Positions 54,956 to 63,841 of a stretch of 64,000 bases of DNA are shown here, in pieces. The notes under the pieces were generated by a model. That model searched no databases and was not told the origin of the DNA. It saw nothing but the letters and a program-made list of their open reading frames with translations. Position numbers and translations under genes: made by a program. The DNA comes from Hydrogenophaga sp. GTDB lineage: Bacteria; Pseudomonadota; Gammaproteobacteria; Burkholderiales; Burkholderiaceae_C. Numbering within the stretch: position 1 is the stretch's first letter; every line of letters starts with the position of its first letter. Where the stretch lies: the NCBI RefSeq assembly GCF_030373225.1, contig NZ_JAUCZG010000002.1, forward strand, positions 124,001-188,000. Direction: 5' to 3'.

Positions 54956-55115
54956 TCAACGGGGCAGCGAACGGTTGGTGACCGCGTCGTCGTCGCGGAA
55001 CAGGGTTTCGTCGAACTTGAAGCGCAGGCGGAGGTAGACGCCTTTGCGGGTGTAGGCCGAGCCCTGGAGCTCGTCGTCGGAGAAGCCGCGCAGGTTGTAG
55101 CCCACCGAGCGGGCC
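54956..55115 (-). pseudogene. 3' stub of an outer-membrane beta-barrel protein gene
   Basis: In a frame not shown by the ORF track the minus strand reads SVGYNLRGFSDDELQGSAYTR then KGVYLRLRFKFDETLF and ends RDDDAVTNRSLPR-stop. This is the pattern of the last beta-strands of a large outer-membrane protein. No start codon or upstream part of such a gene exists: the frame runs into the promoter region of the dehalogenase-like gene. Its stop lies 23 bases before the OmpA-type gene, as if the two had once been an operon. Confidence 0.6.
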
Positions 55116-55185
55116 TCAGGGCGGTGCGGAAGGGCCCAAGCCGGGCAGCTTGATACAGTTCAGGCCCGCCCACGCAGGAGGCTCC

Positions 55186-57291
55186 ATGGCCCGACTCTTT
55201 TCCAACCGTGATCGCCCCTTTGACCTCGGTGTCTTGCCAACCGAACTTCTGCTGCGTGGCACCGTGGAGCCGGTCGCTGGTGCGCGCCAGCCGGAAGATG
55301 CAAGCCCGCCGGGTGCCGACGCGATGCTGGGTGCGCTGCCCGAATACAGGGCGCTGTTCGACAGCCACCTGGATGGCGCGACCGCGCCCGCGCAAGCGCC
55401 GGTGCCCGCTGACCTCGTCACCCGCGCACGCAACCTCAAGGCCTCGGCCTACTTTCTGGAAGCCACGCTGGCCGGTGTCTGCGAGCTTGAACCACAGGAC
55501 TGGCTGCAGGCGGAACACCCCGCGCACACCCACGCCTTCGTGCTGCTGGTCGAATTCAGCCGCGAACCCAAGCCTGGCGAGCCGGGCGCGCCTTGGATCT
55601 GCGGCACCAACGCCGAGCGCACCGACCTGCGGTGTGCCGAAGTGGCGGTGGTCATGGCGGGCTACATCCGCGCGCTGGGCTGGTCGGCGCGCGGGCACGT
55701 GGCCGGCCAGACGCAGGTGCATCTGGCCACCCTGGCCCAGCGCGCCGGCGTGGCGAAAGCCGTCGATGGCGTGCTGGCGATGCCCTTTTCCACACGCGGC
55801 TTTCGCATCGGCGTGGTCACCACCGACTATCCGCTGGCCACCGATCTGCCGATCGCACCCGAAGCCTCGCTGGCCTGGCCGGACGCCGAAACCTACATGG
55901 GTGCCATGGGCACCCGGCCCGGCTTCGAAGACGATGAGCTGGCGCGGCGCCCGGTGCACATGGGCCGCTACGCGATGGAGCGCATCCGCCGTGTTGACGA
56001 GCCCACCACGCTGGTGCTGCGCGACGAAATCCGCCGCGTGCCCAAGCGCGCCGACCTGTTCACACGCGCGCTGGCCGGCGACCTGGGCGACAAAGCCAGG
56101 ACCGAGCGCAGCCGCTTTGCCGTCAAGCATCCGCTGGCCTTTGCCATGACGCCCCTGATCCGCGGCCTGGTGCCTCTGCAGGGAACGCGCGAACCGCTGC
56201 AGCCCACCGGCCTGGGCGGTGATCTGTCGGACCCGCAGCGCAACGCCGACGCCATCAAGGCGCTGGCCCACGTGATGGGCGCCGACCTGGTGGGCATCTG
56301 CGAGGCCGAGCCCTGGATGTACTACTCCCACGACGAGGTCGAGGGCCGGCCGATCGAGCCCTACCACCGCTATGCGGTGGTGATGCTCATCGACCAGGGA
56401 TTCGAGACCATGGAGGGCGCCTCGGGCGATGACTGGATCTCGGGTGCGCAGTCGATGCGGGCCTACCTGCGTGGGGCCACGATGGCCGGCGTGATGGCGG
56501 CCCACGTGCGGCGCATGGGGTACTCGGCGCGCGCACACTCCAACGCCCATTCCGAACTGCTGCACCTGCCAGCCGTGCTGATGGCCGGCCTGGGCGAGCT
56601 CTCGCGCATTGGCGAGCTGATCCTCAATCCTTTCATTGGCCCACGTTCGAAGTCGGTGCTGTTCACGACCGACCTTCCGCTGGCGGTGGACAAGCCGATC
56701 GACTTCGGTCTTCAGGCCATGTGCCATCTGTGCATGAAGTGCGCGCGCGAGTGCCCCTGCAACGCCATCCCATTCGGGCCGAAGGTGATGTTCAACGGCT
56801 ACGAGATCTGGAAGCCCGACGTCGAAAAATGCGGCAAGTACCGGCTCACCAACATGAAGGGATCGGCCTGCGGCCGCTGCATGAAGACCTGCCCCTACAA
56901 CCGGGAGGATCTGGTCGAGTCCGAGCGTCTGCTGTGGCTGTCCATCGACGTGCCGGCCTCGCGCCGCCAGCTCATTGCCCACGACGACAGCAGCGGCGGT
57001 GGCCAGCGCAACGCGGTCAAGCGCTGGTGGTTCGATCTGGAGATCGTGGACGGTGCGGCGGTCACCCCTGCGGGCGGCGTGAACGAGCGCGACCTGGACC
57101 CGTCGCGCACCGACAAGCTGGCAGCGGTGCAGAAGCTCGCGTTCTATCCGCCCGCGCTGCAGCCCGCCGGTGGCACGACCTTGCAGACGGTGTCGCCCAT
57201 CGACCGCCAGGCCGGCTTGCAGGCCTATGCGGCGGCCGAGTCACCCGTGGCGGCGCGCCGACGTCGCAGCAACCGCACGCCAGACGCCTGA
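55186..57291 (+). CDS. Reductive-dehalogenase-type corrinoid/iron-sulphur protein with duplicated corrinoid domain
   Basis: A 701-residue protein with AGGAGG 5 bases before the ATG. Residues about 90-215 and 355-500 are two copies of the reductive dehalogenase corrinoid fold, each with an LxGxCExEPxxW block, an RxxGxSARxH block and a TTDxPLAxDxPI end. Only the second is followed by ferredoxin-like motifs, MCHLCMKCARECPCNA and ACGRCMKTCPYNRED (about 502-580). There is no Tat leader or RdhB anchor gene, so it resembles the soluble catabolic RdhA group rather than respiratory enzymes. Residues about 590-701 hold an arginine-rich tail. Substrate unknown; QueG is less likely given length and the RdhA-type blocks. 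Confidence 0.78.
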   Translation: MARLFSNRDRPFDLGVLPTELLLRGTVEPVAGARQPEDASPPGADAMLGALPEYRALFDSHLDGATAPAQAPVPADLVTRARNLKASAYFLEATLAGVCELEPQDWLQAEHPAHTHAFVLLVEFSREPKPGEPGAPWICGTNAERTDLRCAEVAVVMAGYIRALGWSARGHVAGQTQVHLATLAQRAGVAKAVDGVLAMPFSTRGFRIGVVTTDYPLATDLPIAPEASLAWPDAETYMGAMGTRPGFEDDELARRPVHMGRYAMERIRRVDEPTTLVLRDEIRRVPKRADLFTRALAGDLGDKARTERSRFAVKHPLAFAMTPLIRGLVPLQGTREPLQPTGLGGDLSDPQRNADAIKALAHVMGADLVGICEAEPWMYYSHDEVEGRPIEPYHRYAVVMLIDQGFETMEGASGDDWISGAQSMRAYLRGATMAGVMAAHVRRMGYSARAHSNAHSELLHLPAVLMAGLGELSRIGELILNPFIGPRSKSVLFTTDLPLAVDKPIDFGLQAMCHLCMKCARECPCNAIPFGPKVMFNGYEIWKPDVEKCGKYRLTNMKGSACGRCMKTCPYNREDLVESERLLWLSIDVPASRRQLIAHDDSSGGGQRNAVKRWWFDLEIVDGAAVTPAGGVNERDLDPSRTDKLAAVQKLAFYPPALQPAGGTTLQTVSPIDRQAGLQAYAAAESPVAARRRRSNRTPDA

Positions 57292-58142
57292 AGTCCCGCG
57301 TTGCGATCCATCGGGTGGCAAGCCGGCTGCTCCGCGCGATGTTTTTTGGGGTAGCCGATGGGGAACTCGCCCGACGCCAAAAACCCCTTGTGATTTGAAG
57401 CCTCACAGCAACCTGCAACACGACACTGTGTCGCTGTGTGTGGTGCAGATTGAACCTTGTGTCTACTTGGCGAGGTGGCTAGATCTTGTGGCTTGGACTA
57501 CCGCACAACATCCATCCTGAAGGGCGGCTGTGCAGCGGTTGCAGACGATGGGGATGCAATGACGCGCGCGTGGTCGTTGCCATACTGCAGTCATTCAGTC
57601 CCTGGCAGTGAGTGGGCTTGAGGGTCAGCTTTCTGTGGTGCTGCAGACTTCGCAGGACTAGGTGTGGCGCACACACGGCGTTTGGATGCGCCGCCCCCCA
57701 GATGTTCTTCCTCCAGCAAGCGCCCGCCGCTAGCATTTCAGACACGCACGACCATCTCGCGACGCTCCAGGGTCATAGCTTTCGGTCAACGACAGCCTTG
57801 AGCGCGTGGTACATAAGTGTCAGTCAGCGCACATGCGCCTGAGCTTTGCGTTCTCGTACTGCAACAATCGTAGCTGGGACAGTTGCGAGACCGCCCACGA
57901 TGCGTGTTGAACAGGTCGAACTTAAAGCCATGCACTCCAAGCAGGTATCCGCATCGGCCCTTGTGCTCGCCAAAGACGGCGCGGATTCACCTGCGGCTGT
58001 GGTGGCTCGATGAACTCGGCCAGCATCTGAATCGAAATCACTTGCTCCACCGTGCGGCGCAGCACGCCGCTCTGAATCGCCCGGAGGGTGGCCACTTGGA
58101 ATGGGACTATCGCCGAAGCGAAGGTGGAAAATTGAGCAGCTA
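57292..58142. other. 851-base non-coding stretch with decayed insertion-element DNA
   Basis: No intact gene between the dehalogenase-like and heme-ATPase genes. Composition is lower in GC than the flanks. Open frames on both strands are broken by stops, and part of the stretch reads as an IS3-type remnant (see that entry). 57300-57740 and 57900-58140 were not recognised. Confidence 0.6.
57743..57895 (-). mobile_element. IS3-family transposase remnant
   Basis: The minus strand, read across frameshifts, gives SQLRLLQYENAKLRRMCAD, then LMYHALKAVVDRKL-stop, and from an ATG overlapping that stop MTLERREMVVRV. This is the layout of an IS3-type element: the end of OrfA (LExENxRLKxxxAxxxLxxxALKxxxxKK) and the start of OrfB (RREMV). 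Frameshifts and stops show it is dead. Inverted repeats were not found. Confidence 0.5.
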
Positions 58143-58967
58143 TTAACCGTGCCACACCTTCTCCGTAGCCAGTGGTGGCGCCATCAGCACGATCGGCAGC
58201 CCATCTGAGATCGATCTCTCAACTCCGACACGCAAGCCAAAGACGGACTGAATGCCCACCTCTGTCAGGACCTCCACCGGAGGTGCGTCCTTGACCAGAC
58301 GGCCATTGCTGAACACGAGGACACGGTCAGCATATCGGCTTACCATGTTGAGGTCGTGCATCACTGCCACGACCGTAGCACCCTGCCTTGACTGGTGCCA
58401 CGCATGGTCGAGCACCGCCTTTTGCTGCGCGAGGTCCAGCGCAGAGGTAGGCTCGTCCAACAACAGCAAGCGGTCCGACGGTTCGTCCCATATCTGTGCG
58501 AGAACGCGTGCGAACTGAACCCGCTGGCGCTCACCACCCGACAAGGTGGTAAAGCGTCGATGCGAAAACTCGTCCAGCGCCAGTGCACTCAGTGTTTCGT
58601 TCACCACCCGCACTGCGGTATGGATAGATTCCCCGCGATGCGGCAGGCGACCCATTGCCACCACTTCGCGCACCGTGAAGTCGAACGCGAGTTGTGAGCT
58701 CTGCGGCATCACCGCCATGCGCCGCGCCAGATCGCCGCGCTTCCATTCGGAAAGTGAGCGGCCCAGCAGTGTGATTGCGCCAACTGACTCCCATTCACCC
58801 GTGACCGCCTTGAGCACCGAGGACTTGCCTGCGCCATTCGGTCCGATGATGGCCACAAATTCGCCGGGTGCGATGCGCAGATCGTCGATCAGCACAAGAT
58901 CGCCGCCACCGCGAGACACACGTAGGCCACTCACCATGAGCGCGGAAGGCCTCACAGACCCGCTCAT
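58143..58967 (-). CDS. hmuV: Heme ABC transporter ATP-binding protein
   Basis: A 274-residue ATPase of the FecE/HmuV group, driving import of heme across the inner membrane. Walker A IIGPNGAGKSSVLK, Q-loop VMPQSSQLAFDF, signature TTLSGGERQRVQFARVLAQIW, Walker B LLLLDEPTSALD and switch VVAVMHDLNMVSRYADRVL. ATG at 58967 overlaps the hmuU stop. Last gene of the heme operon; nearest downstream DNA is the IS remnant. Confidence 0.92.
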   Translation of the reverse strand: MSGSVRPSALMVSGLRVSRGGGDLVLIDDLRIAPGEFVAIIGPNGAGKSSVLKAVTGEWESVGAITLLGRSLSEWKRGDLARRMAVMPQSSQLAFDFTVREVVAMGRLPHRGESIHTAVRVVNETLSALALDEFSHRRFTTLSGGERQRVQFARVLAQIWDEPSDRLLLLDEPTSALDLAQQKAVLDHAWHQSRQGATVVAVMHDLNMVSRYADRVLVFSNGRLVKDAPPVEVLTEVGIQSVFGLRVGVERSISDGLPIVLMAPPLATEKVWHG

Positions 58968-60022
58968 GGACGCGCTTCCTCCGTGCCCTGGCGGCGACGC
59001 AACAACCACAGGAAGAATGGAGCACCAATGAAAGCGGTGAGGATGCCGATGGGTAGCTCGGCGGGCCGCACCGCGGTGCGTGCGACCATGTCGCCCGCGG
59101 TCAACACCATGGCGCCCAACAGTGATGCCAGCGGCAACACCAGTCGGTGGTCCGGCCCAACCAACAGGCGCGCCATGTGCGGTGCCACCAGACCAACAAA
59201 CCCGATCACACCGCTGACGGCGACCACCGCGCCGGCCGATGCGGCGGTGAGCGCAATGACCGTTCGCTTGAGCGACTCAACCGCCACTCCCAAGTGCAGC
59301 GCCTCTGACTCGCCCAGCAACAAAGCATTGAGCTGATGAGCCAACCACGGCCCCACCAGCACCATGAGCACGATGGCCGGCGCTGCGCCCAGCAGCGAAG
59401 ACCATGTCGCTCCGCCCATGCTTCCCAGGCTCCAGAAGGTAAGGTTACGCAGTTGCTCGTCGGTGGCCAGGTAGGTGAGCAAGCCAATGCCCGCTCCAGT
59501 GAGCGCATTGATGGCGATACCGCACAGGAGCATGGTGGTGGCATCGAGCACGCCATCGCGCTGCGAAAGGCGAAATACCAGCGTGGCGGTGGCCAGGGCG
59601 CCAAGAAATGCCGCCACGGGCAAGGTCCACACACCGAGCACCAGGGCCAGACCGTGCAGCACCGTGGCGCCCAGCACGATCACGGAAACGGCACCCAATG
59701 CCGCACCCGCGGATACCCCGATGAGCGCTGGATCAGCCAACGGGTTGCGAAACAAGGCCTGCATCATCACACCGGCACATGCCAGCCCCGCGCCCGCCAG
59801 CAGCGCGAGCAGCACACGCGGTAGCCGTACGTTCAGTACCACGACGCGCTGCGCGTCAGTTATGTCGGGATGGGCTTGCCCCAGCAGGATGGCCACCACC
59901 TTGCCCGGTGCGATGGCCACCGCCCCGGTTCCTATGGCGATCACCGCCGTGGCCAGAAACATCAAGGCAGTGATGATCAACACCCATGGCGCGGCGCGTT
60001 GTCGGGTCCAGACCTGACTCAT
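58964..60022 (-). CDS. hmuU: Heme ABC transporter permease (FecCD family)
   Basis: A 352-residue inner-membrane permease with about ten hydrophobic segments. FecCD blocks: LNVRLPRVLLALLAGAGLACAGVMMQALFRNPLADPALIGVSAGAALG, then GVIGFVGLVAPHMARLLVGPDHRLVLPLASLLGA and the C-terminal ELPIGILTAFIGAPFFLWLL. Coupled to hmuT (overlap of 4) and hmuV. The neighbours make heme rather than siderophore or cobalamin the likely cargo. Confidence 0.93.
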   Translation of the reverse strand: MSQVWTRQRAAPWVLIITALMFLATAVIAIGTGAVAIAPGKVVAILLGQAHPDITDAQRVVVLNVRLPRVLLALLAGAGLACAGVMMQALFRNPLADPALIGVSAGAALGAVSVIVLGATVLHGLALVLGVWTLPVAAFLGALATATLVFRLSQRDGVLDATTMLLCGIAINALTGAGIGLLTYLATDEQLRNLTFWSLGSMGGATWSSLLGAAPAIVLMVLVGPWLAHQLNALLLGESEALHLGVAVESLKRTVIALTAASAGAVVAVSGVIGFVGLVAPHMARLLVGPDHRLVLPLASLLGAMVLTAGDMVARTAVRPAELPIGILTAFIGAPFFLWLLRRRQGTEEARP

Positions 60023-60909
60023 GGAAAGCCCGGATGGATCTGCCGTGCCAGCGTGCGCACACCCTGTGGCGTGAAGATGCCCATGCCTTGAAGGAAGTGG
60101 CCTGGTACGGTGATGAGCCTCCCTCCCTTGCCCGCGGGTGTATCCATTGCACCTGGCGCGCGCAGGGCCACAGGTACGCCGTCGACAGGCGAAGTGCCGT
60201 CCTGGTTTGTCAGGATGAATTCCGGTGCGGCGACGATCATGGCCTCGGTGCTCATCACCTTGAAGCCTTCAATATCCTGCGCTACGTTAATAGCACCGGC
60301 CAGTTCCAGCAGGGCCGCGACATTGGTGTTTCGGCCGCCGACCAGCGTGGGTCGGCTGCCACCGGCCAGTATGAACAACGCTCTCGGCCGGCGAGACTGG
60401 CGTGCCACGTCTGCACGAACCACGGCCATCTCCCGATGAAACCTGGCGATCAGAGCCTCTCCTTCGCTCTCTCGCCCAAGCAGCTCGGCCACCACGCGAA
60501 TGCGCTTTTCGACACCGTCAGGCGTTTGGTCTGCGCTAAGCACATGCACGGCAACACCGGCTGCGCGCAGTTGTTCAAGGGTTTGCGGCACGGTCCACTC
60601 GTTGGTCACAAGCACCCTGGTCGGCGACACCGAGAGCATGGGTTCGGCCGAGGTTTGCCGAAAGCCCGGCAGACGCGGCACGGCCTTTAGCTCGGTAAGG
60701 TGATCTGATCCGCCCCCCAGTGCCACGATCTGCTGCCCCCCACCCAGTGCGACCACGATCTCGGCAACGTAGCTGTTGGTCACAATCCATCGTTCTGCGC
60801 GCCCCTTTGCCTGAGCGCTCGCAGTGGCAGCTGTCACGAGCGTCAGCCCTGCGCCGAGCAACATGCCAAACGTGCGACGACTGCAATTCACGTCGTTGGG
60901 CAGGTTCAC
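60019..60909 (-). CDS. hmuT: Periplasmic heme-binding protein
   Basis: A 296-residue substrate-binding protein. GTG start overlapping the hmuS stop. Signal region with SRRTFGMLLGAGLTLVTAATASAQA, possibly Tat-like (twin Arg) ending near residue 33. The binding domain has NSYVAEIVVALGGGQQIVALGG, PMLSVSPTRVLVTNEWTVPQTLEQLRAAGV and AGAINVAQDIEGFKVMSTEAM, matching HmuT/BtuF-like proteins. The heme-ligand tyrosine of HmuT is usually in this N-terminal lobe; Tyr in NSYVAE is a candidate. Confidence 0.9.
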   Translation of the reverse strand: MNLPNDVNCSRRTFGMLLGAGLTLVTAATASAQAKGRAERWIVTNSYVAEIVVALGGGQQIVALGGGSDHLTELKAVPRLPGFRQTSAEPMLSVSPTRVLVTNEWTVPQTLEQLRAAGVAVHVLSADQTPDGVEKRIRVVAELLGRESEGEALIARFHREMAVVRADVARQSRRPRALFILAGGSRPTLVGGRNTNVAALLELAGAINVAQDIEGFKVMSTEAMIVAAPEFILTNQDGTSPVDGVPVALRAPGAMDTPAGKGGRLITVPGHFLQGMGIFTPQGVRTLARQIHPGFP

Positions 60910-61874
60910 AGGGTTACCCCCGTCTCCAGCCCCGCCAGCCAGGCACCAGCCCGCGCGGGCGATTCATCCGGGACAAGGTCAATGGAACCGCCGTCGGCTT
61001 CAAGCAGGCGAACGCCGATGGAGCCGTCCGGTGACTGCACTTGCAGGGCTTCGATCACCCCCGCCATTCGCAGGTGCAGCTTACAGGCGGCATCGACCGC
61101 GTGCACAGCGGGAGGTGTCGACGAGGTTTTTCTCAGTGGGCCTTGGTAGCGGGCGGCCACGCCGCGTCCTCGAACGTCGACCGAAACCTCTTTGACATGC
61201 CCGCAGGCAAGCAGGGCTGCCTGGCCCAGGGATGCTGCAGCTTTGCCCTGCGCCATGAGTTGCTTGGCAGTTTCGTTCCGGCCTGACAGAGGCAACACAA
61301 GATGTGGCGCGTTCGCCTCCACCGTGGCGGACCAGACTGAGCTCGCGTGTTGCAACGGGTGCGCCTTCAGCCAGGGCATCGCAACTTCCCGACCTGACTT
61401 GGACATGAGGAACAGGCGTCCGATGGCATCGCCCTGGGCATCGAACCAGTTCAGGCTCACCGTATGTCCATGGGCGTCGTGCTCTTCAAACAAGAAGCAG
61501 CGGCTTATACCCTGCGAGGTGACCAGCGCATCGTGCTGTGACGTCCGAAAACGCAGGAGAGTCTGGTCAACATCGACGCGTGCGTCGTCCATGATGAACA
61601 AGCCCACACCCAGACGGTTGCGAGCAGCGAGCAGAAGCTTGCCCCACGCTTCACAGGGCGCGAGCAGCTCCGTGAGATCTGTGTACAACTCGGTCGCGCC
61701 ATGACCCATTCGACTGGCCAAGAGGGCCGCCTCGGGCACCCCAAGGCGCTGTGCTGCATCCGGTCCATGCAAGTGGTGGTGCTGCTGCAGAAGGTCCGAC
61801 CATGCGCTGCGCAGGGCGTCAGGATTGGCCAGCAGATACGCCGCGCGGTTCTCGACCGTGGTGTCTATCGTCAT
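60906..61874 (-). CDS. hmuS: Heme-handling/degrading protein, HmuS/ChuS family
   Basis: A 322-residue cytosolic protein; GGAG is 6 bases before the ATG at 61874. Two weakly related halves, as in ChuS/HmuS: LGVPEAALLASRMGHGATELYTDLTELL, GVGLFIMDDARVDVDQTLL, CFLFEEHDAHGHTVSLNWFDAQGDAIGRLF and, in the second half, VSVDVRGRGVAARYQGPL. ChuS-type proteins store or open the heme ring to release iron. Slightly shorter than the usual 340-350 residues. Positioned between receptor and hmuT. Confidence 0.87.
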   Translation of the reverse strand: MTIDTTVENRAAYLLANPDALRSAWSDLLQQHHHLHGPDAAQRLGVPEAALLASRMGHGATELYTDLTELLAPCEAWGKLLLAARNRLGVGLFIMDDARVDVDQTLLRFRTSQHDALVTSQGISRCFLFEEHDAHGHTVSLNWFDAQGDAIGRLFLMSKSGREVAMPWLKAHPLQHASSVWSATVEANAPHLVLPLSGRNETAKQLMAQGKAAASLGQAALLACGHVKEVSVDVRGRGVAARYQGPLRKTSSTPPAVHAVDAACKLHLRMAGVIEALQVQSPDGSIGVRLLEADGGSIDLVPDESPARAGAWLAGLETGVTL

Positions 61875-61885
61875 GCTCTTCTCCT

Positions 61886-63841
61886 TCAGAATCGGTAGGT
61901 AGTAGTCGCATACCAGAAGCGCGCAGGTGGATCCTGCACAGACCCTGTCGCGCTGTAGTTGGCGGGCTGGCGTCGATTGTTGAGGTTGTCCACACCCAAT
62001 GCCAGCGACCATGCAGGGCTGACCTGATAGCCGAGCTTCACATCCAGCGTACCGAAGTTGCTGTTGGTGGGCGGCGGCGTGACCGCAGGCGGGGTCACCG
62101 CAACGCTGGCGTAGTAGTCGCGCAGGTAGCGCCCTTGCACATCGAGGCGCCAGGAACCTTGCTCGTAGCGCGCCCCCGCTCGCAGGGTGTGCCTGGCGCG
62201 CTGAATCAGGCGGGCACCTGTCTGACCGTCTGTGGCGTCGAGATAGTCCCAACCTCCTGTGATCGACCAGCGCGGGTTCAGCTGCCAAGTGGTGCCAAGT
62301 TCGGAGCCGCGCAATCTGGCCTTGCCAATGTTGGTGTAGACGGCTCGGGTGGTCACACCCACGGGATCACCCGGCAGGGCAGCGCGATTGACGGTCTGGA
62401 TCAGGTTGGTCACCCGCGAGTCAAACAACACCCATTCGCCCGACCAGCTCGATGCCGAGTAGCCCGCCACCAGCTCCCAGGCCTTGTTGGTTTCCGGCTG
62501 GATATCGGCTTGCCCCAGGATCAATGAGCGCCCGCGTGTGAACCGCGCATATTGCTCCAGCGCTGAGGGGGCCCGGTAGGCCTCGCCATAGCCAACACGA
62601 AAACTCCAGGGTCCAGGCGAATATCCGAGCGAGACCCGTGGTGTGGTGGCACTGCCGAAGGTGGAGAAATCGTCCCACCGAAGTCCTGCAAGTAGTCTCC
62701 AGGCGGGGGCCAGTCTCCATTCGTCCTGCAACAGCACATGTTGGTTGGTGGTCCTGGCCACTTGCGCCACGATGCTCACGTTCAGATCTTCATCGCGCTG
62801 TCCGGCTCCCACCACCAGGGTGTGCTGTCCGAGGTCCAGAGCGTACCGGGCATCCAGTTGAGTCTGGTCGTAGTCCGTGGTTTCAATGGTCGGGAAACTG
62901 CGCGTGGTGGACGCCTTGCTGTTGCCGTGTGAAAGGTCCACCGACAGCGCTCCCTGCCCTACCGCGCCCGTGTACCGCAAGGCGGCGGTGTAACGCTCTT
63001 CACGTTCATGGGTGGTGAAGTCGGTGATGGGTGCGCGTGCCGTGCGACCCGGCCCCATGTCATCCTGGTCAACAGATTCCAGCAACCAGCGCAGCTGTTG
63101 GCCTGGCACCAGTTGCACCACACCTTCGTAGTTCAGGTAGGTTTCGTCGATCTTGCTGAGGTCGTAGGTAGTCATTGCTGTGCCTGGGTAGCGAAACAGA
63201 TCGCGCTGGCGCTGCTCGACGCTGAAGCGGTGGCCCGCGCCTTGGGTTCCCACGTACAAGGTGGCGCCGGCGATGGCCGTCCCACGATCACCGCCCTGTA
63301 CGGCGCCCAGTGTCAGGCGTGTGCTGCCCCGCTTTACTTGGCCCGGTTGTGGGGCCTTGGTGATCACGTTGATCACGCCGCCGGTGGCGTCGGCCCCATA
63401 CAACGCAGACATGGGGCCACGCACGATTTCGATGCGCTCCACATCTTCTGTGGAAAGCAGGTTCAAGCCTGATGTGCCGTATTTTCCCGTGCGGCGCAGG
63501 CCATCGACCAGGATCAGCACTGGGGAGCCCGCGTTGGAAATGAGGCCGCGCATGGCCACAAATGCACTGGTGCCGTTGGCGCGCGCATCGACACCCGTCG
63601 CCAGCTTCAACGCCTCGGTCACGCTGGTACCGGCATAGGCCTCAAGGTCTTTGGCAGAGATGACTTGTACCGAAGCCTGCACATCCTGAATGGGTTGTTC
63701 GCGCGAAGTGGCGGTGATGACAACCGCCCGAAGCGTTGCGTCAGAGGAGGCAGTGGGTTGCGCGAGAGCAGTTTGAAAAACGGAAAGTGCGAAGCACAAG
63801 GAGATGGTGAGGCGGCTAGCTTGCATGATTGTTGGAGGCAT
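61886..63841 (-). CDS. TonB-dependent outer-membrane receptor, probably for heme
   Basis: A 651-residue barrel receptor. Signal peptide ending QTALAQP, then a TonB-box-like AVVITATSREQPIQDV and plug domain with TGVDARANGTSAFVAMRGL and EIVRGPMSALYGADATGGVINVITK. The barrel ends RFWYATTTYRF, with a terminal Phe. The FRAP motif of heme receptors appears as EAYRAPSALEQY; no NPNL motif follows, giving IQPETNKAWELVAGY instead, as in BtuB/CirA-like receptors. The hmuSTUV genes behind it favour heme. Start could also be the second Met (MQASRL). The 159 bases to the window edge show no convincing Fur box. Confidence 0.87.
   Translation of the reverse strand: MPPTIMQASRLTISLCFALSVFQTALAQPTASSDATLRAVVITATSREQPIQDVQASVQVISAKDLEAYAGTSVTEALKLATGVDARANGTSAFVAMRGLISNAGSPVLILVDGLRRTGKYGTSGLNLLSTEDVERIEIVRGPMSALYGADATGGVINVITKAPQPGQVKRGSTRLTLGAVQGGDRGTAIAGATLYVGTQGAGHRFSVEQRQRDLFRYPGTAMTTYDLSKIDETYLNYEGVVQLVPGQQLRWLLESVDQDDMGPGRTARAPITDFTTHEREERYTAALRYTGAVGQGALSVDLSHGNSKASTTRSFPTIETTDYDQTQLDARYALDLGQHTLVVGAGQRDEDLNVSIVAQVARTTNQHVLLQDEWRLAPAWRLLAGLRWDDFSTFGSATTPRVSLGYSPGPWSFRVGYGEAYRAPSALEQYARFTRGRSLILGQADIQPETNKAWELVAGYSASSWSGEWVLFDSRVTNLIQTVNRAALPGDPVGVTTRAVYTNIGKARLRGSELGTTWQLNPRWSITGGWDYLDATDGQTGARLIQRARHTLRAGARYEQGSWRLDVQGRYLRDYYASVAVTPPAVTPPPTNSNFGTLDVKLGYQVSPAWSLALGVDNLNNRRQPANYSATGSVQDPPARFWYATTTYRF

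Follow-up and report, generated by a model that had tools for sequence, protein, structure and literature searches.

Why does the RdhA protein encoded in a 64,000-nucleotide stretch of Hydrogenophaga sp. DNA (the window) contain two corrinoid-fold domains and a single Fe-S module? A sequence-only reading of the window had described this composition, and homology, cysteine positions and predicted fold agree with it. The same reading had considered the duplication unusual for an RdhA. A single domain is the rule for respiratory RdhAs only; the catabolic enzymes BhbA, NpRdhA and JtRdhA have two. The two-corrinoid-domain architecture is already known, and the duplication is real but ordinary, being common to the whole enzyme class. 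The puzzle of the second domain has already been answered, because the NpRdhA literature describes both the N-terminal domain and the lack of a Tat signal and RdhB. By analogy with NpRdhA, RdhA is very probably an orthologue of that enzyme, a catabolic reductive dehalogenase that is cytoplasmic, tolerates oxygen and acts on an ortho-halogenated phenol, and in which the N-terminal copy is vestigial, lacks cobalamin and replaces the second subunit of a dimer.

Table 1. Features of the rdhA locus (positions in the window)
Feature	Position	Strand	Basis
Remnant (54 codons, 3' end) of an outer-membrane beta-barrel gene, at the rdhA junction	54957..55120	-	Long frames in relatives L065, L066, L067
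Shine-Dalgarno-like AGGAGG, 4 bases 5' of the rdhA ATG	55176..55181	+	Direct sequence reading
rdhA, probable catabolic (NpRdhA-type, reductase-less) reductive dehalogenase	55186..57291	+	ATG at 55186, stop ending at 57291, 701 aa; full-length PDB 4RAS/6ZXU match; TIGR02486
Probable vestigial N-terminal corrinoid-fold copy, residues 70-226	55393..55863	+	Repeat comparison, TIGR02486, predicted fold, replaced Ser/Tyr/Lys
Inter-copy linker, residues 227-342, with L291, F311, A312	55864..56211	+	Aligned with NpRdhA pocket residues F290, F310, P311 (PMC7565698)
Predicted catalytic corrinoid-binding copy, residues 343-508, with S423, Y427, K489	56212..56709	+	Mapped from NpRdhA S422, Y426, K488
Two [4Fe-4S] motifs and predicted substrate-binding R553	56722..56892	+	C513, C516, C519, C523, C549, C562, C565, C569

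The internal repeat of RdhA

BLASTP shows RdhA residues 70-226 to be homologous to residues 343-508 (E=2e-21, with 34% identity in 177 aligned columns). Profiles built from each copy retrieve the other, and the profile-profile comparison that the sequence-only reading had proposed as a check aligned the two over 157 columns (probability 99.8%, E=5e-28). A repeat this strong lies well outside what chance would produce, and the repeated block order suggested for the two halves is borne out, although the limits given for them (90-215 and 355-500) were slightly too narrow. The ARGH (168-171) and ARAH (447-450) motifs are exact, as is TTDxPLAxDxPI, which reads TTDYPLATDLPI (212-223) in the first copy and TTDLPLAVDKPI (494-505) in the second. 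The LxGxCExEPxxW motif is present but looser than described, the second copy reading LVGICEAEPW rather than EPxxW. The cysteine motifs had been placed after the second copy only, and eight cluster cysteines, invariant in all 50 aligned sequences, do lie downstream of the C-terminal copy alone.

The N-terminal copy by itself matches TIGR02486 (E=5.8e-6), and no Pfam model was found for it. An AlphaFold2 model of residues 60-345, built on an alignment of 45 sequences, is confident over about residues 60-240 (blocks mostly >90) and poor beyond. Foldseek searches with this model placed NpRdhA first, followed by PceA-type reductive dehalogenases (E about 1e-7); QueG was matched at an E value of about 1e-5 and human MMACHC/CblC weakly (E=0.011). 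Over long ranges the rmsd to NpRdhA is large, which probably reflects the low confidence of the model's tail. As modelled, the N-terminal copy keeps the corrinoid fold of reductive dehalogenases and QueG. The profile-profile and predicted-fold matches together rule out an unrelated linker in the N-terminal region.

Class assignment, active site and proposed function

RdhA scores 173.8 bits against NCBIfam TIGR02486, above the cut-off of 160.35. A phmmer search of the PDB matched residues 3-695 to the NpRdhA structures 4RAS, 6ZXU and 6ZY0 with more than 1000 bits, and the match to the respiratory enzyme PceA was confined to the catalytic core. Identity to the product of the Nitratireductor pacificus NpRdhA gene is about 65% over 676 residues. 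Matches to Fer4 models in the Fe-S region are weak. RdhA has, ahead of its catalytic core, the duplicate of the cobalamin-binding core that defines catabolic RdhAs (PMC10463259), and after the second copy two [4Fe-4S] motifs; it also has the catalytic Tyr and Lys and the substrate-binding Ser and Arg of these enzymes. As the sequence-only reading had stated, no twin-arginine signal can be read in the N-terminus MARLFSNRDRPFD, and no RdhB-like gene is found among the neighbouring genes. These two absences are likewise characteristic of catabolic RdhAs, whereas the respiratory enzymes combine a Tat signal, an RdhB partner and a single corrinoid domain; L103, used for comparison, carries SRRDFGK and a single domain. 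Domain-model searches returned no reductase-domain match, and the chain stops at residue 701. RdhA thus does not have the C-terminal phthalate-dioxygenase-reductase domain of the self-sufficient BhbA-type subclass.

TIGR02486 spans respiratory and catabolic RdhAs, BhbA included, and its match would also suit an unrelated linker joined to either a respiratory RdhA or a relative of QueG. The missing Tat signal and adjacent RdhB, the catabolic architecture over the full length, the homology of the N-terminal region to the C-terminal copy and the score of 11.6 bits against the QueG model (cut-off 200) leave this reading next to no probability, and the full-length NpRdhA match and the copy-versus-copy profile match refute it. 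The sequence-only reading had also offered several roles for the first copy. The fold of this copy is retained and several of its positions are invariant across homologues, so it is under selection, which could point to a function as a second, active carrier of cobamide or as a regulatory domain that binds a ligand. Such a role is very improbable. NpRdhA, at 65% identity, binds no cobalamin in its N-terminal domain (PMC10463259), and the N-terminal residues aligned with S423, Y427 and K489 are A143, D147 and R207; across the family these sites are mostly Ala or Lys, Asp, and Arg or Ala, respectively. Mean column entropy in the homologue alignment is 1.29 bits for the N-terminal copy and 0.67 bits for the C-terminal copy, and the former evolves faster. 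What conservation it has is explained by structural constraint on an intramolecular partner. The NpRdhA structure, as described in PMC10463259, and the lost catalytic residues speak against a second cobamide site, and among the roles proposed earlier, the dead domain and the intramolecular partner stand.

The alignment bears on the substrate as well. The pocket departs from that of NpRdhA at three positions (L291 for F290, A312 for P311 and G420 for A419), so the substrate may differ from that of NpRdhA; A312 (38 of 47 homologues) and G420 (35 of 47) are the commoner states. We tentatively suggest, at low confidence, that the pocket of the betaproteobacterial clade carrying G420, A312 and L291 fits a bulkier or otherwise different halogenated phenol than that of NpRdhA and that this clade forms a distinct substrate group among reductase-less catabolic RdhAs. 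Recruitment of the RdhA fold, through the same pocket changes, to a compound outside the ortho-halogenated phenols is less probable still, since the triad that contacts the phenol hydroxyl (S423, K489 and R553) and the acid Y427 are invariant in all 47 homologues and every characterised catabolic RdhA acts on ortho-halogenated phenols (PMC10463259). The roles of the corresponding Tyr, Lys, Ser and Arg in NpRdhA have been described (PMC7565698).

The preferred reading remains an NpRdhA-type enzyme, and its most likely function is to remove halogen reductively from ortho-halogenated phenols with electrons from NAD(P)H and so to supply the PobA and LigA steps. We infer the substrate, activity, redox partner and cofactor occupancy by analogy with characterised enzymes. 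As in NpRdhA, base-off cobalamin would be held in the C-terminal copy, and electrons from NAD(P)H would arrive through an unlinked reductase and a ferredoxin or flavodoxin, crossing the two [4Fe-4S] clusters (residues 513-569) to the cobalt. S423, K489 and R553 would hold the hydroxyl group of the phenol, with the halogen as a ligand of cobalt and Y427 as the proton donor. The vestigial N-terminal copy, free of cobalamin, would fill the position that a second subunit has in respiratory dimers, so that the enzyme stays monomeric. Once dehalogenated, the phenol (4-hydroxybenzoate, for instance) could undergo ring cleavage via PobA and protocatechuate 4,5-dioxygenase. The host genome encodes CobS, PobA and the LigA subunit of protocatechuate 4,5-dioxygenase, and the PobA/LigA route is plausible for this host because in Comamonas 7D-2 ligAB lies next to bhbA on the bromoxynil plasmid.

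Distribution and genomic setting of rdhA

A pattern scan of 85,462 species genomes found RdhA relatives at 48 loci, a lower bound because such a scan finds mainly close relatives. Most are in Burkholderiales, and others occur in Nitratireductor, Rhodoplanes and Rokubacteria. Within the host genus, 4 of 36 genomes (the host included) encode a reductase-less RdhA of at least 88% identity, and 3 of 36 encode a BhbA-like RdhA in long frames. Hydrogenophaga strain IBVHS1 has a copy at 88% identity. The duplication is conserved in homologues, being seen in NpRdhA, BhbA and the proteins of a repeat tree of 21 N-terminal copies, 21 C-terminal copies and three single-domain RdhAs. All N-terminal copies grouped together (SH-aLRT 98), as did all C-terminal copies (95), with BhbA represented in both groups. 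This topology is consistent with a single duplication that predates the divergence of the BhbA and NpRdhA branches; its rooting is uncertain because the tree is short and long branches meet. The BhbA-like rdhA frames of two same-genus relatives (L007 and L008, in G027 and G010) exceed 1400 codons and lie near the BhbA of pBHB in this tree. RdhA is one more NpRdhA-type enzyme from Burkholderiales of fresh water and soil and a useful one to consider for bioremediation, and its apparently vestigial domain is kept across Proteobacteria and Rokubacteria.

The neighbours of rdhA are an OmpA-family gene, the truncated barrel gene, a degenerate IS-like sequence and a haem-uptake-like operon; no redox-partner, transporter or aromatic-degradation gene lies next to it. 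Three relatives (G003, G010 and G022) keep the barrel gene in long frames beside the OmpA-family gene, and its remnant here forms the left edge of an insertion. Because similarity to relatives stops at 55109 and similarity to other rdhA loci is limited to about 55142-57297, rdhA appears to have been inserted as a short segment. Clustering of neighbouring ORFs at 49 loci revealed no conserved rdhA operon: only rdhA and antisense frames are common near the closest homologues, and a LysR-like ORF occurs near seven more distant ones. What we take to be a sulfatase-like ORF lies near rdhA at L033, L042, L043 and L058, possibly in relation to sulfated halophenols.

On the minus strand 3' of rdhA, positions 57500-58140 hold degenerate coding remnants, including QLRLLQYENAKLRRMCAD, which we take to resemble the end of an IS3-family OrfA. 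Beyond them, convergent to rdhA (58143-63841, minus strand), lie genes for an ABC ATPase, a FecCD permease, a periplasmic binding protein, HemS/ChuX and a TonB receptor. The receptor scores 179 bits against the BtuB model, the best in the genome and under the 599.7 cut-off. We considered B12 uptake for this locus, but haem uptake is more likely because the locus includes HemS/ChuX.

Comparison with known dehalogenases

RdhA most resembles NpRdhA of N. pacificus (PDB 4RAS and 6ZXU), with which it shares length, domain order, a probably vestigial N-terminal copy, the eight Fe-S cysteines, the catalytic Ser, Tyr, Lys and Arg, and the lack of a reductase domain, Tat signal and RdhB. The NpRdhA structure 4RAS was released in 2014. 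The absence of a Tat signal and of RdhB has been noted for NpRdhA (PMC4771760), and the same architecture and active site, with a vestigial non-binding N-terminal domain, are described in two further studies (PMC10463259; PMC7565698). Its N-terminal copy is free of cobalamin and lies against the catalytic core in the manner of the second subunit in respiratory dimers (PMC10463259); NpRdhA is monomeric because this domain occupies that place. RdhA is about 65% identical to NpRdhA and differs from it in the three pocket residues and in having no ferredoxin or ferredoxin-reductase gene alongside.

BhbA, of the bromoxynil pathway of Comamonas sp. 7D-2, also combines a duplicated corrinoid core with an Fe-S module, at about 40% identity to RdhA, but, unlike RdhA, it has a C-terminal reductase domain; bhbA adjoins ligAB on the conjugative plasmid pBHB, whereas rdhA here does not. 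PceA of Sulfurospirillum multivorans (PDB 4UQU) shares the catalytic corrinoid and Fe-S core and, unlike RdhA, has a single corrinoid domain and is Tat-exported, membrane-anchored and dimeric.
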